Source: Nymphaea colorata (lineage: Eukaryota > Streptophyta > Magnoliopsida > Nymphaeales > Nymphaeaceae). From it: a stretch of 64,000 nucleotides of DNA. Below are positions 11,201-64,000 of the stretch, piece after piece. The position numbers and the translations under genes were made by a program. How positions within the stretch are numbered: position 1 is the stretch's first letter; every line of letters begins with the position of its first letter. The stretch covers positions 3,543,503 to 3,607,502 of the forward strand of contig NC_045143.1 in the NCBI RefSeq assembly GCF_008831285.2, in the 5' to 3' direction. A model generated the notes under the pieces. The model did no database searches and was not told where the DNA came from. It saw nothing but the letters and a program-made list of their open reading frames with translations.

Positions 11201-11858
11201 GCAAGAACCGTGCATGTACTTTGGAATGTGCCATTTATAAAGTTAACCAAAACATCCTCCACAGCATCCATGGCACGATTAAGCAAACGATAAGAAGACA
11301 GTGAAGTAATTAGAACATCCTCCGCAGCACATTTCTATCAGAAGTTCAGAACATCCTCCGGGACCTCGACAGTGCATGAGTTTGACACAATCAGACACTG
11401 ACGACTGGAAGGCCATGATTAGCCGATTTGAGAAGGACTATAATGGTCAAGAAACAGACGTTGCATTACCCTGTAGGTTGTGTAGGTGCGCCTGCTGACT
11501 TCAGCATCGAAGCATGGTTCGGATCTGGTAGCTGGCCCAAATTATCACTGAACCTCTGTTTTGAACATATAAATGGTAACATTAGGAAAATGGGGCGTAA
11601 TATTAATACAGCCTTGACACCAAGAGAAACAGGAACTTGGGAAAAACCTTCATGGATGGATCATCAAGCGAGTCTCTTTGAATTGGCAACTTTAACCGTT
11701 CTTCATACATTTTTGTGGCTAGGGCATTTGCACCCTGGGTCGGCCTCAAGAGGTCAGCACCAACAAGACCATTTGGAGTACCATTGAGAAGATGGGCACC
11801 TTCTCTCCTCTGCTGCTGCTGCTGCTGCTGATGTTGTTGTTGCTGTTGCTGCGGTTGT

Positions 11859-11902
<44 letters not shown>

Positions 11903-25574: not shown

Positions 25575-26661
25575 TATAAAAGCAAGTTAAAAAATTTTTC
25601 ATGAAAAGGACCCAATTAATTTCTATATAGATAAACAGTAATAGTTATATGTAGATAACGTGTCTTAAGAAAACAGTAAGTCATAATGCTTTTGAGACAC
25701 AGGTTACAAAGAAAAAGCAAAGTTATTTTTAAAAATATGATAGGTTTATGCTTAGCATTTGGTCTATAAATCTAAAAATAAGATCAATGGTGACACCGTT
25801 TTTCAAATTATAATATCTTTTGTATCATTATCAAATGCGGACCTTTGATTATTAGATCTAAAAGTACTTTTAGTAATGACATTGTGTTTCATGAAACAAA
25901 AACACTTTGCTTTTGAAAAATAATCTTTTATTATTATTATTATTATCAAACCTCTTTCTAAGGCAACCTGCCTTTGTTCTATAACCATCAATTTGGGATT
26001 AATCCCAAAAGTTGTGCTATTTTTGAAAAGCCGATAGTTTGAATAACTCATGGCACCGTGGTGTTAGTTCTAGGTTAAAAAATTTATATGTGCTGGATGA
26101 TTCTCAGGTATGAAAAATGTTTTCCGAAATACAACCTGAGAATCATCCAGCACATATAAATTTTTTAACCTAGAACTAACACCTCGGTGCCATGAGTTAT
26201 TCAAACTATTGGCTTTTCAAAAATAGCACAACTTTTGGGATTAATCCCAAATTGATGGTTATAGAACAAAGGCACGTTGCCTTAGAAAGGGGTTTGATAA
26301 TAATAATAATAATAAAAGATTATTTTTCAAAAGCAAAGTTTTTTTGTTTCAAGAAACACAATGTGATTACTAAAAGTCTTAATAATCAAAGGTCCGTATT
26401 TGATAATGATACAAAAAAGATATTATAATTTGAAAAAGGGTGTCACCATTGATGTTATTTTTAGATTTATAGACCAAATGCTAAGCATAAACATATCACA
26501 TTTTTAAAAATAACTTTGCTTTTTCTTTGTAACCTGTGTCTCAAAAGCATTATGACTTACTGTTTTCTTAAGACACGTTATCTACGTATAACTGTTACTG
26601 TTTATCTATATAGAAATTAATTGGGTCCTTTTCGTGAAATTTTTTTTAACTTGCTTTTATA
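25575..26661. mobile_element. Foldback element: long inverted repeat with about 530-bp arms
   Basis: Arms 25575-26109 and 26134-26661 are near-perfect reverse complements around a 24-nt loop. Each arm holds the same landmarks: TTGGGATTAATCCCAA, a (TTA)n tract, GTCATAATGCTTTTGAGAC and AGCAAGTTAAAAAA. Arms of this length fit a foldback transposon or a locus producing a long hairpin RNA. No protein is encoded; the two mirrored frames (SYSNYRLFKNSTTFG and SYSNYWLFKNSTTFG) are just the arms read outward. The right end runs into the TATA box of the MADS-box gene. Confidence 0.85.
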
Positions 26662-26665: not shown

Positions 26666-26878
26666 ATTCAAAAGTGCAGCAAGGACTCTCTATTCTCCCT
26701 CTACCAAAAATGGCACCAGAGGGCTGTTACCCATCCACACCACCTTTTCCTTTTTCCCTTCTTGGTATTGCCGGCCGGCAGACCTCATGAAATTCATGAC
26801 TGAGAGCACCTCGCCTCCTCCCTTCATGTCTCTCTCTCTCTCTCTTTCTTCTGTTCATCACCCCGTTTCAAAATTGCG

Positions 26879-29376
26879 ATGGAGAGCGGGAGCGCCACCA
26901 AGCGGCGGGGCTGGTTGCTGAAGAAGGCCCGTGAGCTCGCCCTTCGCCACGATGATCAGGTCGGACTCATCATCTTTTCCAGCAGCAGGCAGATGTTCAA
27001 GTACTGCAGTCCCAACTCCAGGTTCCAACATATATCTCTGTTGCAGTAATGCTGTTCTGTTTTACAATTGTTTTCTCTTGCCTAGGATCTTGGTCTAGAA
27101 AATTTGATGAAGTGAAGCCTTTCTTCAGATGGTTGTATAGATGCTAGGGTAAATCTTGACATGAAAATGATATTGCTTTCTTTCTATTTAATTTGAACAT
27201 GTTGTCTCAGCCTCTGAGTCCATGTTCTTCTCCAATGGATTATTTTGACTAAAAAATCGAAGGCGCCTATCAAATAATTTTGTTCTGATATGCTTGTTAT
27301 GAAGAAGATGGCGATACGATGATCATGAACCATAGTTATTTGATGCACGACTGTTAATCAAAAGAATTATATAAATGAATCACGACAGTCGAACCAAATT
27401 AACTAAGTCTTGGGGTTAATGAGCAAGTACTGGGTTTGCCATGTGGGTCTGCAGGTCATCCGAACAGGCAGACTGTTCTAAGTCTGTAGTAGGACCACCC
27501 TGCACACTGAGAAGTGGTGCAGAGTCCCAATGAGAGCTCATCATTTCCGGGCTTGTTTAGACGTTAGTTAACGAGCGTATAATCACAAGCATCGGGATAT
27601 GTTTCTATTGTGTCGCCAACTTATGGGATTTGATTTCGTGATATTTGCAATTTATTTTTACATGTTTGTGTTTAAAGATTTCTTCTCGACTTTTTATTTT
27701 TCTTGAGTAATTTTGAGGTTTAAATTTCCCAAGATTCATCTTGAGAAAAAACGGCGAAGTTAAGGAAAGGAAGTAGATGACTCTATCCGTGAAATGTGCA
27801 GGAATATGGTACAAGAACGACATGCATACGAACTTTTGCTGCTATGTGTAGCTTAGATGAGCCGAGATGCTGAGATTTCAATCCAACTGCTACTAGTGAC
27901 CCTGCAGGACATATAAACGAGAATTCCCGATCTAAGAACTTTGACGATTATCAAGGGAGAGCTACCCAATCAAATACTACATTTTGTTGGTCGATTGCAC
28001 TAATAATTTGCCTTTACGTTTTCTCTTTTAAAATATAATTTTCTCAATCAGATGTCTATACTCTGTTTCTGTGTTTACACTTAGTCATGTTATAGAATAT
28101 TTATTTCATCCTTGTGAGCGCATAGTAGCTATTACCATGTAGCAAATGATGAAATAGAATGTGGTCACTCTTGCAGCATGCTCCAGATTATTGATAGATT
28201 CAAGAAAGCATCAGGCACTCAAATTCAGGAAGAGGATGATAAACAGGTTGGTCAGCAGCGACAGATCTTCGCATTTTTTTTTTCTTTTACGTAAATTAGT
28301 AGGATGTACAATATCGTACAGAAGATTGATTCTCGCAATTGAGTTCGATAAGATTACTGACCATTGCCAGCAGATATACCGTGAGATGACGAAAATGAAG
28401 AATGAGAATAACAAGCTGCGAGCAACCATGCGACAGTTAACTGGGGAGGATCTCACCACTCTCACCAAAAACCGATCTGAGTTTCTCTAGATCGAGTTCG
28501 CTCAAGGGAGGTACAATGACAACGACAACTCTTCATGCTCTGCTCTATCGCTCTCTTTCTCGCTCTCCCTCTCTGTCTATGGGGTGCACTAACACATGAT
28601 GCTTACGCAGATCCAGTTGCTGCAAGAAGAGCTCGAAGAATTGAGGAGGCAGGTACTACTTGTGCTTAAATGCATGGTTTCTTCATTTAGTTCATCATGC
28701 CATAAAGTTATAAACAAAAATCAAGATCAGGTTAACTGTCTTCTCTTTTGAATATAGTGGCGGCGCATTTTGGAAGCAAAATTCTCGAGAGCGGTAATCT
28801 CTACTTTCAAGTTTCAACTTCGTTATTTTTCCTGTTTTCCATTTCTGCAGATCTATAACTGTTCTTTTTGGTTGGATAGGCTTTGGCTCCTGTTCATATT
28901 TATGCCAGTTTTGTTTCAAATTTCAGCCTGAAAATCTGTAACTTATAGAAGTTAAAATCTAGCTTGGTGTATCTGTTTCTGAGTCGAATAAGTGTGCTTT
29001 CTTATTCATTTTACATCGGCATGGAAAGGTGCTACTAGAAGAAATTTAAGTAGAGGCTAATATTATCCCATAAAGATTCGGTTGATCTGAATCTTATAAG
29101 AAATCACGCCTTACAATACCTACCAAAATTGAACTGGTGATTCATTCTTGTTTTTTTTAGTGCTGATTCCGTCTTCCTCTTCGACCATGTAACGAGTTCT
29201 CTTCCATGTTCTAGAGAGAGAAAGAAACAGAAAAAACAGAGGAATCCAGAGACCTGCTTCAGCTTTCTCCTCCTTTCTCCAACGGGCTTCAACCCACTCA
29301 GCCAAACCTGGAAGATCCAAACCTCCATCACCATGCATGCAGCTCCGGTAATCTGAAAAAAACCGAGAACATAAAG
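26879..29376 (+). pseudogene. Bsister-type MADS-box gene, shortened MADS domain and premature stop
   Basis: Bsister MADS factors (TT16/GGM13 type) act in ovule and seed development. Exon 1 (26879-27021) encodes a shortened MADS domain: MESGSATKRRGWLLKKAREL, then LIIFSSSRQMFKYCS. It lacks the usual MGRGK start and the NRQVTFS stretch. Exon 2 is 28177-28246 (IIDRFKKASGTQIQEEDD). Exon 3, 28371-28510, gives the K domain (IYREMTKMKNENNKLRATMR, then LTGEDLTTL); it fuses the usual exons 3 and 4 and is about 22 nt short. An in-frame TAG at 28488-28490 stops translation at 110 residues, yet IEFAQGR follows in frame. The 42-nt exon 5 (about 28612-28653, IQLLQEELEELRRQ), a short exon near 28759-28794 and a terminal exon at about 29215-29376 remain. 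The terminal exon carries the PI-like motif GLQPTQPNLEDPNLHHH. It is most likely a pseudogene, or a gene for a short non-DNA-binding protein. Confidence 0.8.
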
Positions 29377-32300
29377 GTACACCTTCACACCGTCCATTCT
29401 GTATCGTACTTCTGTCATCTGAATCTTATATATTTCACTACTTTGATCACTATCCGATTATCTGCAGGCTGTCTTGCTGATGATGAAATGTCTGGAATGA
29501 TGCTGTGAAGAGCAGACTAGTGAAGTCGGGGCAGAGAAATGAAGACATAGTTATGTTTTAATTTCTTTTTCCATGCTAATTAGAAGAGCAGACTACTCTA
29601 TTTGGGTTCATATATGGGGAGACCCTGAACAAGTTTATGTGACAGAAGACTAAGTGATTATGCTTCAATATTTGATTTGTACATTTAGCGTAATTAAGCA
29701 CATAAAATTGTAAACATAGTAGAACCATGCATTATTTCATAAGAGAACATATCATAGACAATTTAAATGGTACTTTTGTGCTAACCTCCTTAACCACCAA
29801 ATGGTTATATATAGCTCAAATTCCAATTATATCTACCTGCAGAGACCTTCTTTTCTTTTCTTTTTCTCTTGATGCAAGCGTTATAGCAAGGCCACCTTAG
29901 TTGAAATACTTAATCGGTTGCCTGGCAGCATAAAACTCAGTGATGGCATTTGACGCCGCACCCAGGAACCATGTTTGCTTGGGCTTTCCCAATCCCTCGG
30001 CGACCACTGGGTTTGATCTGGCGATGTGGGTATACCGGAGCCCGCCCAACTTTGGATTCAAATTCAGACCCCGTGTTTCAAAACCATATTCAAATCCATC
30101 TAATAAGATATGAAACTTATGTGTAATGGAATGACATACTCGTCGCATCACAGTTGAATACTGAATTTTCAGGCATATGTACAACTGCAACATGAATCGA
30201 AATCGGACTAGGAATTGAGTCGAAATTTCTTCACATAATTCTGGCTGAATGAATTCAGTATTAAATCAATATAATCTGACATATCTGATCCATTTTACGT
30301 CCCTAACGCATACGGTGAAACAATGGATTTAGTTGACAATACAATTTTTTACATTTTCAACGATAGGAATATCTCTTCTTCAGAGTATATGCTGCTGCAT
30401 ATTTGGTTGAACATTTCCAAACTAATTAATCAAAGTTGAAGCACAGAGGGGTCCTTTTTCTATTCGTGGTAGCAAAAGTTTTGTCATCAAAGTAAAGATG
30501 AAAAGACGTCAAGGGGGTTGGCGCAAGGGGGTTGGTAGGCGGCAGATTTTTCCATGGCACCAATCCTTTGTGCAGCAAAGGAAGGCTACTAACGTGCAAA
30601 CGTAACCACAGCGGGAGTGGCACCCAAGCCATCGAAAGCAGACCCTGTACCTTTAGAACCCTTAGAGGATAAGGGGTTTGGTGGGGGCTTCAGTCTTTTT
30701 ATGAACGGTGGGAATCACCCAAAAAGTAAGAAGGAAAATTATTGCGGAGGAAATTTGTTGAAGGAAAGAGGCAATCATCACGTATGAAACAAACTCTAGT
30801 GCAAAAGAAAGAGACAATTATTATGTTATAAAGTTTTGTAATCGAATTGGAACCCGACTGAAATAACATAAAGATCTGATTAATCTATTACATTTACACA
30901 CATGTGAGATCTAATGCTAGTTAGATCCTAATCAGGATTCAAAGAAAGAAGATGTAAAATTAAGTTCAAACTATGGACTCAAGTACACAGAGAAAGATCA
31001 TGCGAGGTAGATAAAAAGTTGAATCCAACCTAGATATGGGCATCGGGCTGGCCAAGTAAGAAGCGGGTCTAGGCCTGCTCAATGTCTGAAACTGGAGCCC
31101 GGGCCCGATACCTTAAACTCGGGCCAAGGTCCGGCCCGATTATAATAATTTTTTTAATATAAAATATATTTTTAATAATGAAATATATATAATTAATAGC
31201 AAGGCCACCTAGATCTAAAGGCTGGGCTTATTAGGAGCAAGAGACTTGGTGGCAACAACCAGAATGAAATATTATTGAATCGTGGAAATAACACGTCAGG
31301 TGCACCTACCAGAATCAGAACAGACCAGATCCACCTAGATCTCATATCACGGCACATCTCAAATGTGTGGTGAAACAAACACAACCTTCTTATCATCATG
31401 CCTCATATCTCAGATCGACATGATTTAAAATTATCAAATCTTCGGTTTCAAGCCCACAGATTTCAATAGGGACTTTGCCCTCATTCCAAAGCAGACGGAG
31501 CCGGCTGAGCCAGCCTCCGCCTCCCTTTCTCTAGCTAGAGATTCGTAGATTTGGTAGACAACAGGAATCTCATAAATTCATGGTTCTAAAATCCACGGTT
31601 TAATAAGACCATGGATTTTAACTGGGCCACACATCAAATTTATACCGATACCAAATGCATGGCAGTCAAAAGCCCCCTAATACAATTGGACATCAAATCT
31701 TTATTTAAAAGATATGTACTATTTTATATTTTATATTTTATGTAGGAGGAGTTGGAAATCAGACAAGTCACAGGTTAAGGTCGATAGGTCGGGCATGTAG
31801 TGTATAAAAGGTACATTGTTAGCTCGATTCCCGTGGATAATACTCTTCTGGGACCACATGCGGGATTGTGGTACCACTTACGTCACTTAGGCTGCTGATG
31901 TAGCTCTAGACCTCAGATGCAAGAGAAATGAGGGAGGTTTCTGGCTTCTTTTCTGGACGGTGGATTGCTAACCTCTCACTCAGAAAATTAAACTAAGTCA
32001 AGCTTACTCACACTTATCGTCGTATCTAGACAATACATTTATTTAAATAGCCTGGTTTAAGCTAGGTCACTACAGAAAAGCTACGTGCTTCAATGCTGAA
32101 AGCAGTTGGATTTGAACTTTAGATCTTTTGATCCAGAGCTAAATACTGCACGGAAACCATTTTGACTGACATTATGTCAAGAAGGCATCCCTCATATCTG
32201 CTGCTAGTTAACAAGCCTGTGTGAGCAAAACTAAGCCCAACTCATCACTTAGTTCTGGCTGAATGAATTCAGTATTGAGTCTAAATTTCTTCACCTAATT

Positions 32301-33129: not shown

Positions 33130-33650
33130 AACTTTCTCCATGGATCAAGAATGCATGTTATATACCTCTTTGTGACCTGGTTATGAAGCGTAGGTCCATC
33201 TATAAGCATGGTTGTTAGAAAAACTTTCCTGCCCATAATGAATGGTCAACTAAGTTGGCGTCTGGTTTGATTTGCAAACTGAATCATAATCTAGTTGGAC
33301 CTCATTTTCTGTTCCAACTAGAACCCTAGCTCTTTATAACTCCACCCTAGGCTTAAAGGTTCTTTATTACCAAATCCAGAAAGTTGTGGTCATACCACAT
33401 TATGCCAAGCACATTTATTTTGGATGTCGACGTTGAAAAATGAATTCCTAACCGTAGATGTACTTTCTATCAAGATCCTTCCTCCTCCCTACCTGCTTCT
33501 TCTTCTTCTGTGAAAGTCAGTTCCTCACAAACATTTCTTCATATTACTATTTTACTCTTCGCCCAGGTATCTGCTGCACATGTTATGTGCCTCATTCTCT
33601 CTTTCTCTTTCTCTGAATTAAGAAGCGGATCAACATTTCTATCCCGCAAT
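33130..33650. repeat. Dispersed repeat: joins pieces shared with 13.7 kb and 43.1 kb
   Basis: 33130-33290 matches 13711-13870, and 33290-33650 matches 43052-43410, both direct. The second part has the look of a 5' leader (TATAACTCC, a long CTTCTT stretch, then a CCAG/GTATCT junction). It might be the displaced promoter region of a gene, but no coding sequence follows in either place. Confidence 0.6.
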
Positions 33651-33734
33651 TAGTTTACATCTAAAACTACATTCAATTCAATCGGGTTCGTGTGGCAAGG
33701 CAGGCTTGGACTGTCAGACAGTTTCTTCCACTCA

Positions 33735-42745: not shown

Positions 42746-43810
42746 TTCTTTTTCCTTTTTATTGTGGCGGTGCAGGAGTTGCACATCCAGTACTTTTTAA
42801 GGGCATCATAATCATCAATATCCAAATTTTGGAGGAAGGTTTCTTTTTATCCTCTTTCAAGAACATATTTCTTACATCATTTTGCAATCCATTTGACAGG
42901 ATCATTCATGTGTCAAACTTGACAATGCCAACTTAAAAACTTGCATCAGCCTCGCCACTGATTGGTTCACATGTGTAGCTTAGCTCTTGTGAATGGGATT
43001 GAATTCGTTGCAGGCAGATCGAGATCCAAGTTGGTTTAGATTACTTTCTAGCTTGGACCTCATTTTCTGTTCCAACTAGAACCCTAGCTCTTTATAACTC
43101 CACCCTAGGATTAAAGGTTCTTTATTACCAAATCCAGAAAGTTGTGGTCGCACCACATTATGCCAAGCACATTTATTTTGGATATCGACGTTGAAAAATG
43201 AATTCCTAACCGTAGATGTACTTTCTATCAAGATCCTTCCTCCTCCCTACCTGCTTCTTCTTCTTCTGTGAAAGCCAGTTCCTTACAAACATTTCTTCAT
43301 ATTACTATTTTACTCATCGCCCAGGTATCTGCTGCACATGTTATGTGCCTCATTCTCTCTTTCTCTTTCTCTGAATTAAGAAGCGCTTCGACATTTCTAT
43401 CCTGCAATTAATTTATATCTACAACTGCTTTGAGCAGAGGCAAGCCATCCGGATCAGACCGCTAAACCGGGTCAGCCGATTCAGACCCATGCAGCAAGAC
43501 CGACCCAAACAGATCTCGATCCAACACCATTTCGGAATAGGTCTTTGGATCAATTCACAGAATCAGATCTGCTATTCAGATCCAGATCCCAGATCCATCT
43601 CACCCTCCAGATCCCAACCGTCCATCTTTAGCTTCGCCCTTAGATGTTTCTAGAAACTCTAAGATCCATCCGTTCACCCTTCCATGCCATCTGGGCCATT
43701 GATCTAGCCCGGAATAAACCACCACCGTCCATCCATAGACCCTAGCCACGGGTAAATCTCAGCCCTCCATCTAGGAACCCTAAACCCGAGCTAAACGCTG
43801 GCCACCCATC
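42746..43810. other. Copy 2 spacer before the MADS hairpin locus
   Basis: 43052-43410 repeats 33290-33650. 43431-43800 is a C-rich, repetitive-looking block with recurring CCGTCCATC and CAGATCC motifs and no open frame of interest. It looks like transposon-derived DNA. No gene is supported. Confidence 0.5.
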
Positions 43811-44471
43811 TACAGACTTAGAACAGTCTGCCTGTTCAGATGACCTGCAGACCCACATGCCAAACCCAGTACCTCTACTTGATGTCTGCTTGTTTAATGT
43901 CTTGTGCTGCTGCTCATTAACCCCAAGACTTGGTCAATTTGGTTCGTCTATCGTGATTCGTTCATATAATCCTTTTGATTAACAGCCGTGCATCAAATAA
44001 CTATGGTTCATGATCATCGTATCGCCAGCTTCTTCATAACAAGCATATCAGAACAAAATTATTTGATAGGCGCCTTCGATTTTTTAGTCAAAATAATCCA
44101 TTGGAGAAGAACATGGACTCAGACGCTGAGACAACATGTTCAAATTAAATAGAAAGAAAGCAATATCATTTTCATGTCAAGATTCAAGATTTACCCTAGC
44201 ATCTATAAAACCATCTGAAGAAAGGCTTCACTTCATAAAATTTTCTAGACCAAGATCCTAGGCAAGAGAAAACAATTGTAAAACAGAACGGCATTGCTGT
44301 AGCAGAGATATATGAAGGAACCTGGAGTTGGCTGTAATACTTGAACATATGCCCGGTGCTGGAAAATATTATGCTATGGATCTGGTCATCGTAGCGAATG
44401 GGGAGCTCACGGGCCTTCTTCAGCAACGATCCCCGCCGCTTGGTGGCGTTCTCCATCGTAATGCTCTCCAA
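43811..44471 (-). pseudogene. MADS exon 1 plus intron 1 piece, inverted (unit I, left arm)
   Basis: Read on the minus strand, this matches the MADS-box gene from its ATG into intron 1 (26879 to about 27494). The frame begins MESITMENATKRRGSLLKKA and continues FSSTGHMFKYYS, then runs into intron sequence (CFTIVFSCLGSWSRKF). It shares the loss of NRQVTFS with the 26.88-kb gene, so that deletion predates this copy. The inner part, about 44271-44481, pairs with 44518-44697. Confidence 0.85.
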
Positions 44472-44517
44472 TTTTCAAGTACTGATAAGTATGGACATTA
44501 TCATGAAGCGATAATGG

Positions 44518-44817
44518 AACTTGGAAAATTGGAGAGCATAACGATGGAGAAGGCCCGTGAGCTCGCCATTCGCTACGATGACCAGATCGGACTCATAATA
44601 TTTTTCAGCACCGGGTATATGTTCAAGTATTGCAGCCAACTCCAGGTTCCTCCATATATCTCTGCTGCAGCAATGCCGTTCTGTTTTACAATTGTTCTCA
44701 GCGGGGATGACTGCTGAAGAAGGCCCGTGAGCTCGCCATTCGCTACGATGACCAGATCGGACTCATAATATTTTCCAGCAGCGGGCAGATGTTCAAGTAC
44801 TGCGGTCCCAACTACAG
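44518..44817 (+). pseudogene. MADS exon 1 pieces, sense (unit I, right arm)
   Basis: 44518-44697 is the reverse complement of the left arm across a loop of about 36 nt. It has lost the KRRGWLLKK segment (reads MEKARELAIRYDDQ). A second partial exon 1, 44700-44817, follows directly (KKARELAIRYDDQ, then FSSSGQMFKYCGPNY). It ends exactly at the exon 1 boundary, where other sequence (CTCAAGATCTGCCTAACC) begins. Confidence 0.8.
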
Positions 44818-44912
44818 TCTCAAGATCTGCCTAACCCCAATCTAAGTCAGATACAAGCCACGACTTGTTCATGATGTGGCATAAAATCATCACCTAAACC
44901 CTGGCCACCCAC

Positions 44913-45551
44913 CTACTGACTTAGAACACTCTGCCTGTTCAGATGACCTGCAGACCCACATGGCAAACCCAGTACCTCTACTTGATGTCTTGCTCATTAA
45001 CCCCAAGACTTGGTCAGTTTGGTTCGTCTATCGTGATTCGTTCATATAATCCTTTTGATTAACAGCCGTGCGTCAAATAACTATGGTTCATGATCATCGT
45101 ATCGCCAGCTTCTTCATAACAAGCATATCAGAACATAATTATTTGATAGGCGCCTTCGATTTTTTAGTCAAAATAATCCATTGGAGAAGAACATGGACTC
45201 AGACGCTGAGACAACATGTTCAAATTAAATAGAAAGAAAACAATATCATTTTCATGTCAAGATTCAAGATTTACCCTAGCATCTATAAAACCATCTGAAG
45301 AAAGGCTTCACTTCATAAAATTTTCTAGACCAAGATCCTAGGCAAGAGAAAACAATTGTAAAACAGAACGGCATTGCTGTAGCAGAGATATATGGAGGAA
45401 CTTGGAGTTGGCTGCAATACTTGAACATATGCCCGGTGCTGGAAAATATTACGAGTCCGATCTGGTCATCGTAGCGAATGGGGAGCTCACGGGCCTTCTT
45501 CAGCAACCATCCCCGCCGCTTGGTGGCGTTCTCCATCGTAATGCTCTCCAA
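44913..45551 (-). pseudogene. MADS exon 1 plus intron 1 piece, inverted (unit II, left arm)
   Basis: This is the second copy of the 43811-44471 segment, offset by about 1.1 kb. The frame begins MESITMENATKRRGWLLKKA and keeps IRYDDQIGLVIFSSTGHMF. The inner part, about 45349-45561, pairs with 45598-45812. Confidence 0.85.
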
Positions 45552-45597
45552 TTTTCAAGTACTGATAAGTATGGCCATTATCATGAAGCGATAATGG

Positions 45598-45929
45598 AAC
45601 TTGGAAAATTGGAGAGCATAACGATGGAGAAGGCCACCAAGCGGCGGGTATGGTTGCTGAAGAAGGCCCGTGAGCTCGCCATTCGCTACGATGACCAGAT
45701 CCATAGCATAATATTTTCCAGCACCGGGCATATGTTCAAGTATTGCAGCCAACTCCAGGTTCCTCCATATATCTCTGCTGCAGCAATGCCGTTCTGTTTT
45801 ACAATTGTTTTCAGCGGGATGGCTGCTGAAGAAGGCCCGTGAGCTCGCCATTCGCTACGATGACCAGATCGGACTCGTAATATTTTCCAGCAGCGGGCAG
45901 ATGTTCAAGTACTGCGGTCCCAACTACAG
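45598..45929 (+). pseudogene. MADS exon 1 pieces, sense (unit II, right arm)
   Basis: 45598-45812 is the reverse complement of the unit II left arm and keeps the full exon 1 (MEKATKRRVWLLKKAREL). It therefore forms a longer and better paired stem than unit I, about 213 bp. A partial exon 1 follows at 45813-45929, as in unit I. Confidence 0.85.
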
Positions 45930-46019
45930 TCTCAAGATCTGCCTAACCCCAATCTAAGTCAGATACAAGCCACGACTTGTTCATGATGTGGCATAAAATC
46001 ATCACCTAAACCCTGGCCA

Positions 46020-46207
46020 CCCACCTACTGACTTAGAACACTCTGCCTGTTCAGATGACCTGCAGACCCACATGCCAAACCCAGTACCTCTACTTGATGT
46101 CTGCCTGTTTAATGTTTTGTGCTGCTGCTCATTAACCCCAAGTCTTACAGTCAATTTGGTTTGTCTATCGTGATTCATTTATATAATCCTTTTGATTAAC
46201 AGCCTTG
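46020..46207 (-). pseudogene. MADS intron 1 piece, inverted (start of a third, truncated unit)
   Basis: This matches the outer ends of the left arms at 43811 and 44913 (shared TGTTCAGATGACCTGCAGAC and CTTTTGATTAACAGCC). It breaks off before exon 1. It shows that the 1.1-kb hairpin unit was tandemly duplicated at least twice. Confidence 0.75.
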
Positions 46208-46232
46208 CGAACCAAAATCAAACATGCCTAAA

Positions 46233-46452
46233 TAGAAGTCTTCATTTCTCTGCCCCGACTTCACTAGTTCAGTAGTCTGCTCTTCACAGCATCATTCCGG
46301 ACATGTCATCATCAGCAGGACAGTGATCAAAGTAGTAGTGAAATGTCTGGAATGATGCAGGTTGTCCTGCTGATGATGAAATGTCTGGAATGATGCTGTG
46401 AAGAGCAGACCATTGAACTAGTGAAGTCGGGGCAGAGAAATGAAGACTTCTA
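46233..46452. repeat. Second hairpin, from the 3' end of the MADS gene
   Basis: Arms 46233-46322 and 46363-46452 are reverse complements (TAGAAGTCTTCATTTCTCTG against its complement) with a 40-nt loop. The right arm matches the 3' end of the MADS gene at about 29470-29555 (GATGATGAAATGTCTGGAAT), so the left arm is an inverted copy of it. The GTCTGGAATGATGC motif also occurs within the loop. Confidence 0.85.
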
Positions 46453-48893
46453 TTCAGTTATGTTTTAATTTCTTTTTTCCATGCTAATTAGAAGAGCAGA
46501 CTACCCTATTTGGGTTCATATATGGAGACCCTGAACAAGTTTATGTCACAGAAGACTAAGTGATTATGCTTCAATATTTGATTTGTACATTTAGCGTAAT
46601 TAAGCACATAAAATCGTAAACATAGTAGAACCATGCATTAATTCATAAGAGAGCATATCATAGTCAATTTAAAATATCTTAAGCATTATATATAAAAATG
46701 CAGATAAGCGACTGGAAAACAAATGAATCCAGTGATCAACCAATTACTTGCTTGTGAACCATCACCTGCATTTTCTGCTGATCCACCGATGATCTTTGCG
46801 TGGGCACATGACCAACACAGCGCTTTGTTTTTCTTTTCATTTTGCTTTTTGATAAGCACAAAGCATGCGCCCCATGGGAGAGCAGATCAGGTTCACGTTC
46901 GTATTTACAATGCAATGTCACGGTTCCGATATATATGTGGATACGTGATGGCTGATTTAATTTATCTCCATAGGGTTATTGGTGACTGGAGGTGCTGCCT
47001 TCGTTGCGCACCCAGGAACTATGTTTGCTTGGGCTTTCCCAATCCCTCGGCGACCACTGGGTTTGATCTGGCGATGTGGGTATAGTACACCGGAGCCCGC
47101 CCGACTTGGATTCAAATTTAGACCCCGTGTTTCAAAACCATATTCAAATCCATCTAATAAGATATGAAACTCATGGGTAATGGAATGACATACTCCTTTC
47201 ATCACAGTTGAATACTGAATTTTCAGGCATATGTACAACTGCAACATGAATCGGAATCAGACTAGAAATTGAGTCTAAATTTCTTCACCTAATTCTGGCT
47301 GAATGAATTCAGTATTAAATCAATATAATTTGATATATCTGATCCATTTTACGTCCCTAACGCATATTAGTTGACGACATAATTTTTTACATTTTCAACG
47401 ATAGGAATATCTCTTCTTCTCAGAGTATACGCTGCATGTTTGGTTGAACAATTCCAAACGAATTAGTCAAAGTTGAAGCACAAAGGAGCTCCTTTTCTAT
47501 ATGTGGTAGCAAAAAAATTGTCATCAAAGTAGAGATGGTAAGTCCCTGGGAATGGAGGCTGGCAAGAGGTAGATTTTTCTTTCGAATGCCCAAGCTGAAT
47601 CATATTGGAGGTGGTACCCGAGGCACCCAAAGCAGACCCTCTATCATGAGGAGATAAAGCGTTTGATGGGGAGTTTGGTCAGTGGTGGAAAGCCCCGGTC
47701 ATCCAGATAAAAAATTATTGTGGAGAAAGTTTGTTGAAAGAGAAGAGACAATCATCATATATGAAACAAACTCTACTGCAAAAAAAAAAAAAAAGAAAGA
47801 GACAATTATTATGCTATAAAGTTCCATATCATGCTAGTCAGATCCGAATCAGGTTTCAAAGAAATAAGGTGTGAAATCCAGTTCAAAAAACAGACCAAAC
47901 TACACATAGAAAGATTCGTGCGAAGTTGATAAAAAATTGAATCCAATTGAACTGCCTACATCCCTGCATCTGATCATTGACTGGATCTGGAGTTGGTTTT
48001 GCACGCATTTGAAAATTCAAGGCCCACAAGACAATCAACCAAATCCACTTAGGCTACCTGATTTGCCATTAAGTGTTAGCCATTTCTCACTCTAGGGTTG
48101 CAACAACCTGATCAAGCCTGTATTGAGGAGCATGAAATAGCTGGTGGGGTGGCAGGCTGGTAAAAGTCTAGTCATCAATTCGATTCTCATGGGCGCTCTT
48201 TCTATGTACTTCAAATGATGGATGCACAATACTCCATTTGACAGATATGCAACATATTTGTAAGAATAACATCTATTGGAATCAAGATTAATAATAAAAT
48301 CTCATAAAATTGACAATTTGGGTGGCATATACACGCACAGACTCAAACACACAAAAAATTCTGTCAACTGCAGGCATAGTCAAATACGGACACTTGATGG
48401 GCACTAACTTTTAATGATGTAGTCAATATGATATGGAAGTTTACAAACAGATACACAAAGTAACTTTTCTAAAAGTTCACTTTTTGAAGGGGACAACTTA
48501 TTTTGTATTTGACGTTTCTTATCTCCATATTATATATGGCTATATTAGCAATTAAAAAAAATAACTACACATATTGAACACTTTATTATATTTCATCTTG
48601 GATTTTGGCTGAATGCTAAAAAATTTTGTCAACTAAGTTGGTTGCCAGATGAGTTTGGTCTTCCGATTACGTAAAGTAGGCCATGCATTTTACCATTAAT
48701 TTTGTAAAACTAGCTGACGGCCGACCTTATTTTTTTTCCAACATGATTTATAGGCTAGCAGTTAGAAAGCTGCTAATTCATCTTCGAGACTACTTTGCAT
48801 CATAATTCTTTCAAATTTGGATGGCATTCCAAAGGCAGAAAGAGCATGGTTACTGATTCTCATATGACACCAATTACATTTACATCTAATTTT
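46453..48893. repeat. Segmental duplication, copy 2 (second block), non-coding
   Basis: 46453-47250 and 48365-48893 match 29555-30190 and 32570-33110 in direct orientation. 46690-46960 is unique to this copy and is open for about 90 codons on the plus strand (MNPVINQLLACEPSPAFSAD), with no recognised domain. 47620-48360 holds no gene. Confidence 0.65.
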
Positions 48894-51009
48894 AGCTCTG
48901 GGACACCTTATAAAAATTCTCTTCTTTGAAGGGGCACAACATATATAAATAAATAAGTAGTTGTAAGAAATGTATGTAAAAGTATATAAAGTTCAATAAA
49001 ATTTTGTTGCTGGCGTGGGCGACTGCCCTCACCAGCTTATATGTAGCTCTGCAATATATATATATATATATATATAATAATAATAATGAAACAAAAATTT
49101 GTGGATAATATTTTACATAAATATGTATATATAATATAAATCATGATAAATATATATATTTTGATATTATATATATATATATATAAATATTTTAAGAAAT
49201 GACATCTGATCGGATTCAATTTCAGAAATACATAAATATGTGGTTGGATTCAGATAAAATTTAGTTTAAAATAAATATCCTATAACCAAAACTCTTACAT
49301 TTTTAAAATGGGTCAGATTCGGTCAAAAAAATATGAATGTAAAAGCTTTTGTCTTAACAGCATCCATGTGGAATACCCACACGGTCACACCAGCCCCGAG
49401 TTAGTGCCCTACAGGCTAGGAACCCCCTAACTTGGGGAACAGTAAGTGCCTTTTAGTCAAAATTTTCGCCATTTGGTCGGCTCTAATAGTCCCCCTCTAA
49501 GGGTTTAGCTATTGATAAACAAATTAAAAATTTAACACGAAGAGAAGCGAACTTAATGCAAAATGTGAAGGTTATGGAACGTTATTAATTTCTTGTTAGA
49601 AAATGTTGAAAGACCGCGCGAGCCAAAGTGCTTTTGGCTCATCTACTTCCATTTATGATAAAGACAGCCAATTCAATATGATGTGTTTGTCATATTATTC
49701 GCCGAGTAAGTGGTTGTTCACAACTTCTTTGCATTTAGTTATGCCCTTTTGGAGGACAACTAATTTTCAGAGACCCGAAAGCTCCCCCTCCTCTCTTCCC
49801 AATACTCTGCCTCTTAGGTCCTCCGGACTATAGGAACACCTTTTGAGACATAAACTTCCTTTCAAGCCATTTGGGACTATTCTTTTGAACATGTCAATAT
49901 ATTCGATTTGGATGAGTTATCTAATTGAATTGTCCAAAAAAAAAATGGATATGAAAAAAGAATTGTATCCAATTAAAAATTTGAATCAAACTCGGATTCG
50001 GATATTCATAAGTATTTGATTGGACTTGGATTTAGTTTTACATAAATATCCTATATCAAATGCACTTTATTGTGAAAGTCTGTTGGATTTGATTTAAAGT
50101 TCCGATACAAATTCAGATGTAAATTCAAATGGCAGATTTGGATTGGATTAAGATATGAATACAACTTGTCTTCGTTCCCATTTGAATCTGAACATACAGA
50201 AAAGCATATATGGCTATGACTACATTTTACTTTCACAAGTTTTCTCTCAGCAAACTAAATTTGACTATAAATATGATCATGAAATGACAATTCTTGTTAG
50301 GAAATGCTCACAAACCGACAGCAAACTAAATTCTTTCACATATTGACTTGTTTATCGACACTACACTAGGGCACTCTTAGTTAGCCCAAATAACAAACAA
50401 CCGAATATTTAAAATAGAAAAGCTATTTTTTTAATAAGATGGTGTTTAGGTAAAGAACCAGAAAACAAAAGCCCGACATTTTTTGAGAAAATAAAATATA
50501 TATAAGCGGTTTCTTGAAAACTGGAAAAAGTGTTGATTTTTGAAAACCTGAAAACGACGTGTTACTTCCACTGCCATCCTTTCTCTGGTAATTCTTAGAA
50601 ACGATGGCCCCAGCTCAGGGCTTGATCCTTTTGATCTCAGGTATTACATCATTTTTAAAAAGTTTAGTTTAAGATGGTATGAAGCAGGACGTCTACTTAC
50701 AGTCACTTGAAATATAAAACCCCAGCGTATGTCACTATTTCTTTGAGACTAATATTGGATTTTTTTTTTAATTTTTTGACAATATTATTTTGAAGAAATT
50801 ATAAAAGGCTGCTCAAAGATTAGAAAAATAACAAACAAGTGCGCACCTAACTTTTGAATTACAACAACGGGGACACTCAAAGTTTCAATCAGCAATCGAA
50901 ATTCTAGTTGTATGGATAAAAGGATCGGCAAATCTTTAAATTACAAGAAATTAACGACAAAGTCTACAAGTGACATTAAATTCAAATTTCAAACGATCGG
51001 TGGAGCACA
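48894..51009. other. Intergenic region, repeat-rich, no gene recognised
   Basis: 48894-49070 repeats part of the copy 2 insertion at 38000-38175 and ends in an (AT)n run. 49370-49860 is a less AT-rich patch with a 76-codon plus frame from 49603 (MLKDRASQSAFGSSTSIYDK) that I cannot assign. The rest is AT-rich. Confidence 0.45.
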
Positions 51010-56505: not shown

Positions 56506-59500
56506 GTAAGATAGAGACCACTCATTGTATCTCAACATATTTAGATCAGATATGACCACTGATCGTATTTGGATCAGATATGACCACTGATCGTAGTTCA
56601 ACAATATTTAGATAAATATGATCGAAGTTCAACAATATTTAGATCAGACATGACCACTGATCGAAGTTATACAATATTCAAATCAGACAAGACCACTGAT
56701 CGAAGTTCTAGAATATTCAAATCAAATAAGACCATTGATCGAAGTTCAACAATATTTAGATCAGATAAGACCTTTGATTGTAGTTCAACAATATTCGCTT
56801 CAGATAAGACCAATGATCGAATTTCAACTATATTCTAACTAAATGAGCCCACTGATCGAACTCCAACAACATTCAGATTAGATAAGGTAGCTGATCGAAG
56901 TTCCACAATATTCATATATGATAAGACCACTCATCGAAGTTCTACACCATTCAGATCACATATGACCAATGATTGAAGTTCAACAATATTGAGATCAGAC
57001 AAGACCATTCATCCCAGTTTTATAATATTCAGATCAGACAAGACCACTCGTCGAAGTTCAACAATAATCAGATCACATAAAACCACTGATCGAAGTTCAA
57101 CTATAATCGGATCAGACAAGACCATTGATCGAAGTTCTACAATATTCAGATCTGATAAGACCACTGATCGAAGTTCTACAACATTCAGATCACATATGAC
57201 CACAGATCGAAGTTCAACAATATTCAGATCAGACAAGACCATTGATCGAAGTTCTACAATGTTCAGATCAGACAAGACCAATGATCGAAGTTCAACAATA
57301 TTCAGATCAGATAAGACCACTGATCGAAGTTCAACTATATTCGGATCTGACAAGACCACTCATCGAAGTTCTAGAATATTCAAATCAAACAAGATCATTG
57401 ATCGAAGTTCAACAATATTTAGATCAGATAAGTCCTTTGATTGTAGTTCAACAATATTCGCTTCAGATAAGACCACTGATCGAATTTCAACTATATTCTA
57501 ACTAAATGAGCCCACTGATCGAACTCCAACAACATTCAGATTAGATAAGGTAGCTGATCGAAGTTCCACAATATTCATATATGATAAGACCACTGATCGA
57601 AGTTCTACACCATTCAGATCACATATGACCGCTGATCGAAGTTCAACAATATTCAGATCAGACAAGACCATTGATCCAAGTTCTATAATATTGAGATCAG
57701 ACAAGACCACTCATCGAAGTTCAACAATATTCAGATCACATAAAACCACTGATCGAAATTCAACTATATTTGGATCAGATAAGACCTATGATCGAAGTTC
57801 AACAATATTCTGATCCGATAAGACCACTGATCGAAGTTCAACTATATTTGGATCAGACAAGACCACTGATTGTAGTTCAACAATATTCGCTTCAGATAAG
57901 ACCACTGATCAAATTTCCACAGATAAAACCAAGTTCTATAATATTCAGATCAGACAAGACCACTGATCAAAGTTCAAAAATATTCAGATCAGGTAAGACC
58001 ATTGATCGAAGTTCAACTATATTCGGATCAGACAAGACCACTGATCGAAGTTCTACAAAATTTAGATCAATCAAGACCATTGATCGAAGTTGCACAATAT
58101 TCAGATTTGATAAGACCACTCATCGAAGTTCTACAACATTCATATCATATATGACCACTGATCGAAGTTCAACTATATTCAGATCAGACAAGACCACTGA
58201 TCAAAGTTCAACAATATTCAGATCAGATAAGACCACTGATCGAAGTTCAACTATATTCGGATCAGACAAGACCACTGATCGAAGTTCAACTATATTCGGA
58301 TATGACAAGACCACTCATCGAAGTTCTAGAATATTCAAATCAAACAAGACCATTGATCGAAGTTCAACAATATTTAGATCAGATAAGACCTTTGATTGTA
58401 GTTCAACAATATTCACTTCAGATAAGACCACTGATCGAATTTCAACTATATTCTAACTAAATGAGCCCATTGATCGAACTCCTACAACATTCAGATTATA
58501 TAAGGTAGCTGATCGAAGTTCCACAATATTCATATATGATAAGACCACTGATCGAAGTTCTACACCATTCAGATCACATATGACCACTGATCGAAGTTCA
58601 ACAATATTCAGATCAGACAAGACCATTGATCCAAGTCCTATAATATTCAGATCAGACAAGACCACTCATCGAAGTTCAACAATATTCAGATCAGATAAGA
58701 CCACTGATCGAAGTTCAACTGTATTCGGATCTGACAAGACCACTGATCGAAGTTCAACAATATTCAGATCAGATAAGACCATTGATCGAAGTTCAACTAT
58801 ATTTGGATCAGAGAAGACCACTGATCGAAGATCTACAACATTTAGATCAATCAAGACCATTGATCGAAGTTGCACAATATTCAGATCTGATAAGACCACT
58901 GATCGAAGTTCTACAACATTCAGATCACATATGACCACTGAGCGAAGTTCAACAATATTCAAATCAGACAAGACCATTGATCGAAGTTCTACAATGTTCA
59001 GATCAGACAAGACCATTGATCGAAGTTCAACAATATTGAGATCAGATAAGACCACTGATCGAAGTTCAACTATATTCGGATCTGACAAGACCACTCATGG
59101 AAGTTCTACAATATTTAGATCAAACAAGACCATTGATCGAAGTTCAACAATATTTAGATCAGATAAGACCTCTGATTGTAGTTCAACAATATTCGCTTCA
59201 GATAAGACCACTGTTCGAATTTCAACTATATTCTAACTAAATGAGCCCACTGATCGAACTCCAACAACATTCATATTAGATAAGGTAGCTGATCGAAGTT
59301 CCACAATATTCATATATGATAAGACCACTGATCGAAGTTCTACACCATTCAGATCACATATGACCACTGATCGAAGTTCAACAATATTCAGATCAGACAA
59401 GACCATTGATCCAAGTCCTATAATATTCAGATCAGACAAGACCACTCATCGAAGTTCAACAATATTCAGATCAGATAAGACCACTGATCGAAGTTCAACT

Positions 59501-62500
59501 ATATTCGGATCTGACAAGACCACTGATGGAAGTTCAACAATATTCAGATCAGATAAGACCACTGATCGAAGTTCAACTATATTCAGATCAGACAAGACCA
59601 CTGATCGAAGTTCTACAAAATTTAGATCAATCAAGACCATTGATCGAAGTTCCACAATATTCAGATCTGATAAGACCACTCATCGAAGTTCTACAACATT
59701 CATATCATATATGACCATTGATCGAAGTTCAACAATATTCAGATCAGACAAGACCATTGATCGAAGTTCTACAATGTTCAGATCAGACAAGTCCATTGAT
59801 CGAAGTTCAACAATATTGAGATCAGATAAGACCACTGATCGAAGTTCAACTATATTCGGATATGACAAGACCACTCATGGAAGTTCTACAATATTTAGAT
59901 CAAACAAGACCATTGATCGAAGTTCAACAATATTTAGATCAGATAAGACCTCTGATTGTAGTTCAACAATATTCGTTCCGGATAAGACTACTGATCGAAT
60001 TTCAACTATATTCTGACTAAATGAGTCCACTGATCGAACTCCAACAACATTCAGATTAGATAAGGTAGCTGATCGAAGTTCCACAATATTCATATATGAT
60101 AAGACCACTGATCGAAGTTCTACACCATTCAGATCACATATGACCACTGATCGAAGTTCAACAATATTCAGATCAGACAAGACCATTGATCCAAGTCCTA
60201 TAATATTCAGATCAGACAAGACCACTCATCGAAGTTCAACAATATTCAGATCAGATAAGACCACTGATCGAAGTTCAACTATATTCGGATCTGAGAAGAC
60301 CACTGATCGAAGTTCAACAATATTCAGATCAGATAAGACCATTGATCGAAGTTCAACTATATTTGGATCAGAGAAGACCACTGATCGAAGTTCTACAACA
60401 TTTAGATCAATCAAGACCATTGATCGAAGTTGCACAATATTCAGATCTGATAAGACCACTGATCGAAGTTCTACAACATTCAGATCACATATGACCACTG
60501 AGCGAAGTTCAACAATATTCAGATCAAACAAGACCATTGATCGAAGTTCTACAATGTTCAGATCAGACAAGACCATTGATCGAAGTTCAACAATATTGAG
60601 ATCAGATAAGACCACTGATCGAAGTTCAACTATATTCGGATCTGACAAGACCACTCATGGAAGTTCTACAATATTTAGATCAAACAAGACCATTGATCGA
60701 AGTTCAACAATATTTAGATCAGATAAGACCTCTGATTGTAGTTCAACAGTATTCGCTTCAGAGAAGACAACTGATCGAATTTCAACTATATTCTAAATAA
60801 ATGAGCCCACTGATCGAACTCCTACAACATTCAGATTAGATAAGGTAGCTGATCGAAGTTCCACAATATTCATATATGATAAGACCACTGATCGAAGTTC
60901 TACACCATTCAGATCACATATAACCACTGATCGAAGTTCAACAATATTCAGATCAAACAAGACCATTGATAGAAGTTCTATAATATTCAGATCAGACAAG
61001 ACCACTCATCGAAGTTCAACAATATTCAGATCACATAAAACCACTGATCGAAGTTCAACTATATTCGGATCAGACAAGACCACTGATCGAAGTTCAACAA
61101 TATTCAGATCAGATAAGACCACTGATCGAAGTTCAACTATATTCAGATCAGACAAGACCATTGATCGAAGTTCTACAAAATTTAGATCAATCAAGATCAT
61201 TGATCGAAGTTCCACAATATTCAGATCTGATAAGACCACTCATCGAAGTTCTACAACACTCATATCATATATGACCACTGATCGAAGTTCAACAATATTC
61301 AGATCAGACAAGACCATTGATCGAAGTTCTACAATGTTCAGATCAGACAAGACCCTTGATCGAAGTTCAACAATATTGAGATCAGATAAGACCACTGATC
61401 GAAGTTCAACTATATTCGGATATGACAAGAACACTCATGGAAGTTCTACAATATTTAGATCAAACAAGACCATTGATCGAAGTTCAACAATATTTAGATC
61501 AGATAAGACCTCTGATTGTAGTTCAACAATATTCGCTTCGGATAAGACTACTGATCGAATTTCAACTATATTCTGACTAAATGAGTCCACTGATCGAACT
61601 CCAACAACATTCAGATTAGATAAGGTAGCTGATCGAAGTTCCACAATATTCATATATGATAAGACCACTGATCGAAGTTCTACACCATTCAGATCACATA
61701 TGACCACTGATCGAAGTTCAACGATATTCAGATCAGACAAGACCATTGATCCAAGTTCTACAATATTCACATGAGACAAGACCACTCATCGAAGTTCAAC
61801 AATATTCAGATCACATAAAACCACTGATCGAAGTTCAACTATATTCAGATCAGACAAGACCACTGATCAAAGTTCAACAATATTCAGATCAGATAAGACC
61901 ACTGATCGAAGTTCAACTATATTCGGATCAGACAAGACCACTGATCGAAGTTCAACTATATTCGGATATGACAAGACCACTCATCGAAGTTGTAGAATAT
62001 TCAAATCAAACAAGACCATTGATCGAAGTTCAACAATATTTAGATCAGATAAGACCTCTGATTGTAGTTCAACAATATTCACTTCAGATAAGACCACTGA
62101 TCGAATTTCAACTATATTCTAACTAAATGAGCCCATTGATCGAACTCCTACAACATTCAGATTATATAAGGTAGCTGATCGAAGTTCCACAATATTCATA
62201 TATGATAAGACCACTGATCGAAGTTCTACACCATTCAGATCACATATGACCACTGATCGAAGTTCAACAATATTCAGATCAGACAAGACCATTGATCCAA
62301 GTCCTATAATATTCAGATCAGACAAGACCACTCATCGAAGTTCAACAATATTCAGATCAGATAAGACCACTGATCGAAGTTCAACTATATTCGGATCTGA
62401 CAAGACCACTGATCGAAGTTCAACAATATTCAGATCAGATAAGACCATTGATCGAAGTTCAACTATATTTGGATCAGAGAAGACCACTGATCGAAGTTCT

Positions 62501-64000
62501 ACAAAATTTAGATCAATCAAGACCATTGATCGAAGTTCCACAATATTCAGATCTGATAAGACCACTGATCGAAGTTCTACAACATTCAGATCACATATGA
62601 CCACTGAGCGAATTTCAACAATATTCAGATCAGACAAGACCATTGATCGAAGTTCTACAATGTTCAGATCAGACAAGACCATTGATCGAAGTTCAACAAT
62701 ATTGAGATCAGATAAGACCACTGATCGAAGTTCAACTATATTCGGATCTGACAAGACCACTCATGGAAGTTCTACAATATTTAGATCAAACAAGACCATT
62801 GATCGAAGTTCAACAATATTTAGATCAGATAAGACCTCTGATTGTAGTTCAACAGTATTCGCTTCAGAGAAGACAACTGATCGAATTTGAACTATATTCT
62901 AACTAAATAAGCCCACTGATCGAACTCCTACAACATTCAGATTAGATAAGGTAGCTGATCGAAGTTCCACAATATTCATATATGATAAGACCACTGATCG
63001 AAGTTCTACACCATTCAGATCACATATAACCACTGATCGAAGTTCAACAATATTCAGATCAAACAAGACCATTGATAGAAGTTCTATAATATTCAGATCA
63101 GACAAGACCACTCATCGAAGTTCAACAATATTCAGATCACATAAAACCACTGATCGAAGTTCAACTATATTCGGATCAGACAAGACCACTGATCGAAGTT
63201 CAACAATATTCAGATCAGATAAGACCACTGATCGAAGTTCAACTATATTCAGATCAGACAAGACCACTGATCGAAGTTCTACAAAATTTAGATCAATCAA
63301 GACCATTGATCGAAGTTCCACAATATTAAGATCTGATAAGACCACTCATCGAAGTTCTACAACATTCATATCATATATGACCACTGATCGAAGTTCAACA
63401 ATATTCAGATCAGACAAGACCATTGATCGAAGTTCTACAATGTTCAGATCAGACAAGACCATTGATCGAAGTTCAACAATATTGAGATTAGATAAGACCA
63501 CTGATCGAAGTTCAACTATATTCAGATATGACAAGACCACTCATGGAAGTTCTACAATATTTAGATCAAACAAGACCATTGATCGAAGTTCAACAATATT
63601 TAGATCAGATAAGACCTCTGATTGTAGTTCAACAATATTCGCTTCGGATAAGACTACTGATCGAATTTCAACTATATTCTGACTAAATGAGTCCACTGAT
63701 CGAACTCCAACAACATTCAGATTAGATAAGGTAGCTGATCGAAGTTGTACAATATTCATATATGATAAGACCACTGATCGAAGTTCTACACCATTCAGAT
63801 CACATATGACCACTGATCGAAGTTCAACGACATTCAGATCAGACAAGACCATTGATCCAAGTTCTACAATATTCACATCAGACAAGACCACTCATCGAAG
63901 TTCAACAATATTCAGATCACATAAAACCACTGATCGAAGTTCAACTATATTCGGATCAGACAAGACCACTGATCGAAGTTCAACAATATTCAGATAAGAT
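56506..64000. repeat. 39-bp satellite array with 780-bp higher-order repeats
   Basis: The monomer is 39 bp (one strand reads DRSSTIFRSDKTT per unit; core GATCGAAGTTCAACAATATT). About 190 monomers fill 7.5 kb to the window end and clearly continue beyond it. A marker monomer with TATTCTAACTAAATGAGCCC recurs at 56831, 57494, 58449, 59229, 60009, 60789, 61569, 62115, 62895 and 63675. The spacings are 663, 955, 780, 780, 780, 780, 546, 780 and 780 bp; all but 955 are exact multiples of 39. The basic higher-order unit is therefore 20 monomers, with deletion variants of 14 and 17. Marker variants show a further order: the pair at 60789/61569 recurs at 62895/63675, 2106 bp (54 monomers) away. Confidence 0.95.

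Follow-up and report, generated by a model that had tools for sequence, protein, structure and literature searches.

Tandem fold-backs in a rearranged Bsister-type MADS-box pseudogene of Nymphaea colorata, a candidate source of long-hairpin siRNAs

A rearranged MADS-box pseudogene, apparently of the Bsister type, is present in the 64-kb window of the Nymphaea colorata genome analyzed here (the whole stretch C6:3543503-3607502) and consists largely of inverted gene pieces that form three consecutive fold-backs. A transcript crossing this locus would fold into long, nearly perfect double-stranded stems, and the chances appear to be about even that the locus, if transcribed, is a source of long-hairpin siRNAs. 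The plant enzymes DCL2, DCL3 and DCL4 would be expected to process such stems into a population of 21-24-nt siRNAs rather than a single miRNA. The first targets of these siRNAs would be the locus itself and the other copies of the family on contig C6, and they could also pair with the mRNA of the Bsister-type gene on contig C1; a useful effect on the C1 gene is the less likely half of this proposal.

Layout and folding of the array

Self-comparison of the window reveals tandem units that begin at about 43791, 44894 and 46006 (positions within the window), the last one truncated, with offsets of 1103 and 1112; tandem units of ~1.1 kb with inverted exon-1 arms had already been recognized in the first-pass annotation, with starts that agree with these to within a few tens of bases. 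Units I (43791-44893) and II (44894-46005) are direct repeats, and the truncated start of the third unit (46006-46208) is 93% identical to positions 43791-43991. Each unit runs from antisense intron 1 through antisense exon 1 and a short spacer to sense exon 1, and then to a second, truncated sense exon 1, and the truncated third unit is followed on its 3' side by two copies of the gene's 3' end, the first inverted and the second direct. The gene pieces at the locus are thus six copies of exon 1 and two of the 3' end, with zero matches to exons 2-6.

The antisense arm of unit I, which includes MADS exon 1 and the start of intron 1, lies on the minus strand at 44268-44476, and the sense arm, which lacks 33 nt that the antisense arm has, on the plus strand at 44524-44699; the corresponding arms of unit II are found at 45348-45556 (minus) and 45604-45812 (plus). 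All exon-1 arms are ~78-82% identical to the C1 gene. The truncated second sense copies (44701-44817 and 45816-45929, both on the plus strand) are, respectively, 89.7% and 89.5% identical to copy A, another member of the family in the same window, and the first of them is 82.9% identical to C1 exon 1. These second copies were absent from the earlier account, as was a third fold-back at 46214-46471, whose antisense arm (46214-46323, minus) comes from the gene's 3' end and whose sense arm is the part up to 46471 of a 3' remnant on the plus strand (46356-46746). This remnant is 88.8% identical to copy F and, over 46356-46721, 82.4% identical to C1:26784120-26784515.

The spacer of unit I (44477-44523) aligns, by eye, with the stretch that precedes the C1 start codon, so that the two exon-1 copies face each other by their 5' ends; its three genome matches are in unit I, in unit II and at C6:3640726-3640777. 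The left flank of the array is an antisense piece of intron 1 (43433-43812, minus), 91.6% identical to window-relative positions 101119-101487, which lie in intron 1 of copy B, and beyond it is an inverted copy (43001-43426, minus) of a stretch that precedes the C1 gene by ~1.8-2.3 kb (78.6% to C1:26777709-26778195), which also occurs downstream of copy A (33290-33668, 96%). This far stretch is the sole match to the C1 upstream region at the locus: the proximal promoter region, that is, the 0.9 kb leading up to the start codon of C1 (C1:26779129-26780028), has no match within 43000-49000.

The gap-free arm alignments comprise 155 nt at 92% identity in unit I (122 nt between the arms), 209 nt at 94% in unit II (47 nt between) and 109 nt in hairpin III (40 nt between). 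Folding yields 177 nested pairs for unit I (44250-44720; -334.8 kcal/mol, z = -38.1) and 209 for unit II (45330-45830; -411.7 kcal/mol, z = -38.3), with none of the 100 shuffles as good in either case, in line with the stems of ~180 and ~213 bp proposed earlier. The stem of hairpin III (-184.5 kcal/mol, z = -22.0; none of 200 shuffles as good) is mostly near-perfect as well. A loop of ~36 nt had also been proposed; a loop is indeed present, but by the arm ends it measures 47 nt (45557-45603 in unit II) and is in part paired inside, the innermost loops of hairpins I, II and III being 7, 7 and 3 nt. With copies <2 kb apart, stems of >100 bp and loops of <2 kb, the array has the geometry that defines long-hairpin or inverted-pseudogene siRNA loci in a rice study (PMC2708354).

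Young MIRNA genes had been invoked in the first-pass annotation along with hairpin-siRNA genes, and inverted duplication of a target sequence is, reportedly since the work of Allen in 2004, a known origin of MIRNA genes. The inverted duplication and the fold both hold at this locus but an actual MIRNA gene is very improbable: plant MIRNA fold-backs extend over no more than ~300 nt and have imperfect stems, whereas fold-back I is 432 nt long with 177 nested pairs, fold-back II is 465 nt long with 209, and hairpin III, although only 258 nt long, is near-perfect. No Rfam family matches the 64-kb window at the gathering score.

Elsewhere in the window, a long tandem-repeat stretch (56977-63682) contains open frames of up to 259 codons made of a short repeated motif, and the minus strand at 8369-12724 carries glutamine-rich open-frame pieces with a LisH-like start, which presumably resemble a LEUNIG-type co-repressor.

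The gene family and the history of the arms

The genome searched here comprises 407.8 Mb in 783 contigs; the genome report gives 409 Mb, 804 scaffolds, 14 pseudo-chromosomes and 70 MADS-box genes, lists the genome data under PRJNA565347 and describes transcriptomes of organs (PMC7015852). A MADS profile search of the genome yields 97 matches, and hairpin II, used as a DNA query, has at least 31, those listed being all on C6 or at the C1 gene. The tandem and inverted arrangement could, in principle, reflect a foldback transposon or a MITE with a captured MADS exon. This origin is, however, highly unlikely because the copy number is low, the matches listed belong to the C1 gene and to the family copies on C6 rather than to a dispersed multi-copy element unrelated to the host gene, and the locus is colinear with the gene in its intron and exon parts. 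Because there is overlap between the other readings considered here and those of a MIRNA gene or a transposon, the probabilities we attach to all of them add up to more than one.

The C1 locus (C1:26780029-26784008) contains a predicted intact gene with six exons and GT-AG introns that encodes a protein of 233 amino acids with the MIKC structure, in which a MADS domain (PF00319, 88.1 bits) is combined with a K-box (PF01486, 93.7 bits). The C-terminal motif and the exon sizes point to Bsister, and residues 1-64 are 69% identical to the TT16 sequence used for comparison; this motif, the exon sizes and the likeness to TT16 together suggest that the C1 gene is of the Bsister type.

The five gene copies examined on C6 (A, B, D, E and F) all appear to be broken, as judged from the start, gap and frame differences from C1. 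Copy F no longer has the ATG and shows a gap of one base in its last exon, the matches of copies A, D and E begin only late in the MADS domain, and that of copy B begins at codon 17, with an ATG just before it that is, by eye, out of frame. Exon 3 of copy A (26682-29767, plus strand) additionally contains 24 gap positions. In copies B, D, E and F, the K-box exon aligns with C1 without gaps. The dN/dS values against C1 (0.34 and 0.30 for the sense and antisense arms of unit II, 0.26-0.81 for exon 1 and 0.83-1.49 for exon 3 of the C6 copies) come from few sites and are set aside. A coding role of the arms was considered and rejected: the 82-codon frame in the sense arm of unit II covers only positions 13-48 of the Pfam SRF-TF profile, this arm lacks, by eye, 21 nt of the MADS domain, and a 2-nt deletion precedes the exon end in all four arms.

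Copy A, the Bsister-like gene at 26890, had been named as the source of the hairpins, but this is rejected by divergence and tree; it is a broken cousin. The four arms diverge from copy A by 15.6-18.1% and from one another by 3.8-7.4% (8-13 differences per 176-209 sites), and in trees of 12 rows, built without the window-relative fragment 97040-97310, they form a clade of their own that is split from all other rows with support of 92 in IQ-TREE and 0.915 in FastTree. Against copies A, D and E, the arms show 26-37 differences per 166-200 sites, a count that takes in the 5' end, where these copies differ in kind from the arms; over 111 clear exon-1 sites, the antisense arm of unit II differs from copy A at 14. 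Between this arm and copy A, exon 1 diverges by 15.3% and the next intron stretch by 2.4%. The same trend is seen between C1 and copy A (18.4% in exon 1 and 7.3% in the intron stretch, compared with ~15% over the longest gene stretch), and hence the proximal intron is read as slow-evolving rather than the arms as fast. Across copies A, B, D and E and the hairpin units, divergence is only 0.6-4.3% in a stretch near the start of intron 1 and 2.5-24.7% in exon 1, the latter partly over poorly alignable 5' ends; copy D contains ~355 bases of the intron 1 start stretch three times.

In the scenario that we favor, fold-back or template-switch duplication would have produced inverted copies, almost or entirely free of spacer, of exon 1 plus a portion of intron 1 and, separately, of the 3' end; the exon-1 fold-back would have been tandemly duplicated afterwards. 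The arms within a unit differ at 13 of 176 sites in unit I and at 12 of 209 sites in unit II. Outside the arms, the two units differ at only 12 of the 694 aligned sites (24 gap columns excluded), a similarity which suggests that the inversion preceded the tandem duplication. At five adjacent columns (98-102), the antisense arm of unit I is identical to the sense arm of unit II, and the sense arm of unit I to the antisense arm of unit II; this block swap mispairs each unit internally, indicating that perfect pairing is not maintained. At column 104, the base of the antisense arm of unit II recurs in the second sense copy of that unit but in none of the other arms, pointing to gene conversion at this position at least. 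In a sister unit at C6:3640660-3640795, the loop survives along with some of the second sense copy and a short piece of the antisense arm; the sense arm is missing and most of the antisense arm is gone. Given this decayed relative with its loop, and given that the arms of each unit differ from one another, an origin of the hairpins from a sequencing fold-back artefact is unlikely.

The same observations are compatible with a second account, under which the locus is inert palindromic debris, that is, part of a pseudogene cluster prone to fold-back duplication that was never usefully transcribed, its hairpins having arisen as a by-product of DNA repair and now decaying. The broken appearance of the five examined C6 copies, the lack of a match to the proximal promoter, the disturbed stems and the decayed sister unit all fit this account, which we consider a serious alternative, if one of somewhat less than even probability.

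Predicted guides and the C1 gene

The complementarity to MADS-box transcripts postulated in the first-pass annotation is borne out by prediction, and the genome search supplies the kind of target with matching sites that had been envisaged, namely, the predicted intact C1 gene. With guides defined as gap-free 21-mers and an Allen-type scoring scheme at a cut-off of 4, the best scores of the four exon-1 arms on C1 are 3.0, 1.5, 1.0 and 3.0. The windows scoring ≤4 on the C1 coding sequence number 17 and 33 for the antisense arms of units I and II and 14 and 19 for the respective sense arms (83 altogether), and 45 and 39 for the second sense copies (84); hairpin III adds 23 and 44 windows on the C1 3' region (67), with scores down to 0. 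None of the windows in eight other MADS loci (out of the 97 matches; 3,144 bases each, forward strand) scores ≤4, the best score being 4.5 (L005 and L007), and none does so in five mononucleotide shuffles of C1, where the best score is 7.0.

The guides fit the C6 copies better, with, for example, 565 windows on exon 1 of copy A, so that these copies would be the first targets. Most guides have mismatches against C1 and, with the arms matching C1 at only ~78-82%, many would be poor. These features weigh on the strongest form of the siRNA proposal, in which the locus is a real regulator of C1 analogous to FERR-R/ARR17 of poplar and, in certain organs or genotypes, its siRNAs reduce the C1 mRNA or cause methylation of the C1 gene. 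Like FERR-R, which is a rearranged partial copy in which exon 1 recurs and which produces siRNAs (PMC7674411), the Nymphaea locus is a rearranged partial copy with a repeated exon 1, and its predicted guides reach scores of 1.0 on C1 exon 1 and 0 in the 3' region, the latter relevant only if the C1 mRNA extends to that site. Nevertheless, we judge such a role to be unlikely: besides the mismatches, there is no sign of conservation of pairing between the arms, the swapped block disrupts pairing in both units, the C1 proximal promoter has no match at the locus and the stem of the sister unit is mostly lost.

Palindromes of the C6 cluster and known hairpin systems

Other palindromes accompany the family on C6. 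Directly upstream of copy A, at 25575-26661, lies a near-perfect, near-spacer-free palindrome with 522 pairs and a 4-nt loop; the left arm has eight genome matches, six on C6 (including its own two arms) and two on C1 near 29.71 Mb. Its sequence has no match to the C1 gene, which favors the inert-debris account. Further near-spacer-free palindromes are found in intron 1 (C6:3642014-3642168, 76 pairs), upstream of copy D, with promoter pieces in both orientations (C6:3402713-3403884, 542 pairs), and in copy B, where a palindrome of 781 nt (C6:3646192-3646972; L014:8690-9470) contains exon 4, intron sequence and the beginning of exon 6. It folds with 343 pairs, located at C6:3646197-3646968 (-570.2 kcal/mol, z = -69; none of 20 shuffles as good).

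Of eight clusters of inverted repeats, five occur at MADS blocks (circular-shift p = 0.017), and a stricter scan detects 10 fold-backs in 278,152 bases, low-complexity palindromes having been removed before both scans; the scanned letters were mostly picked around MADS loci, so that this is not a genome-wide rate. Six of the 10 are Bsister-derived, one is that just upstream of copy A, two, both weak (75% and 78%), are at other places in the window and one lies beside a MADS gene on C14; the stricter scan finds none at copy F, C1, C12, C7 or L001-L008. The palindromes are thus a feature of the C6 cluster, which speaks for a common cause at the DNA level. The origin of six of the 10 from one gene family, among letters mostly picked around MADS loci, counts against the inert-debris account. 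On C14, inverted copies of another MADS gene are arranged tail to tail (L047, C14:3458603-3460034; 643 aligned nt at 85%), with a further palindrome of 440 nt next to them (C14:3458089-3458528).

A broader version of the siRNA proposal would view the entire C6 cluster as an RNAi nursery, in which separate fold-backs of the promoter, exon 1, intron 1, the 3' end, and exon 4 together with the beginning of exon 6 give rise to siRNAs that jointly span a large part of the family, keep the C6 copies silent and either act on the sole intact Bsister-type gene or drove its divergence. We consider this version improbable. Counting both strands, guides from the hairpin locus cover 151 of the 188 bases of C1 exon 1, and those from the copy B palindrome cover 16 of the 42 bases of exon 4 and 29 of the 198 coding bases of exon 6; guides from the palindromes of copies B and D over the C1 upstream region may comprise CT-rich repeats.

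Returning to the three-hairpin locus as a putative siRNA source, the MADS-box targets are shared with miR444 and miR824, which are miRNAs with precise products that target MADS-box mRNAs; the locus differs from both in having long, near-perfect stems rather than a miRNA-like precursor. Among the literature matches listed, the titles and abstract beginnings describe no MADS hairpin locus in Nymphaea. The closest parallels are long-hairpin systems, and FERR-R is the closest of them. The rice inverted pseudogene pairs, which were picked by a stem of >100 bp, a loop of <2 kb and small-RNA density, likewise consist of inverted pseudogene copies within 2 kb with the same stem and loop geometry (PMC2708354); they were, however, chosen with small-RNA reads, whereas the Nymphaea locus was chosen by sequence and has spacers of only 47 and 40 nt (hairpins II and III) and three hairpins in a row. 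The ability of long hairpin RNAs to control genes is illustrated by the teosinte Tpd1 hairpin (PMC11390486) and the Drosophila simulans Nmy/Tmy hpRNAs (PMC10292708), which, as would be the case here, are sources of siRNAs against protein-coding genes. FERR-R resembles the locus in being a rearranged, repeated and inverted partial copy of a flower regulator, with an intact target elsewhere and possible action through siRNAs (PMC7674411). Tpd1 and Nmy/Tmy are backed by genetics, in a gene-drive setting, and FERR-R is Y-linked and transcribed, has promoter segments and makes siRNAs, whereas the Nymphaea locus, which has no match to the proximal promoter, is described here from its sequence.

By its anatomy, the Nymphaea locus is a new candidate member of this class of long-hairpin siRNA loci. 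If the stems are transcribed, it would represent, in an early-branching flowering plant, a gene-derived hairpin family between pseudogene and regulator, aimed at an ovule and seed gene. Even if it is inert, the presence of several near-spacer-free palindromes from one family makes it possible to read in which order inversion, tandem duplication and exchange of sequence took place, and this order bears on the birth of hairpin RNA genes.
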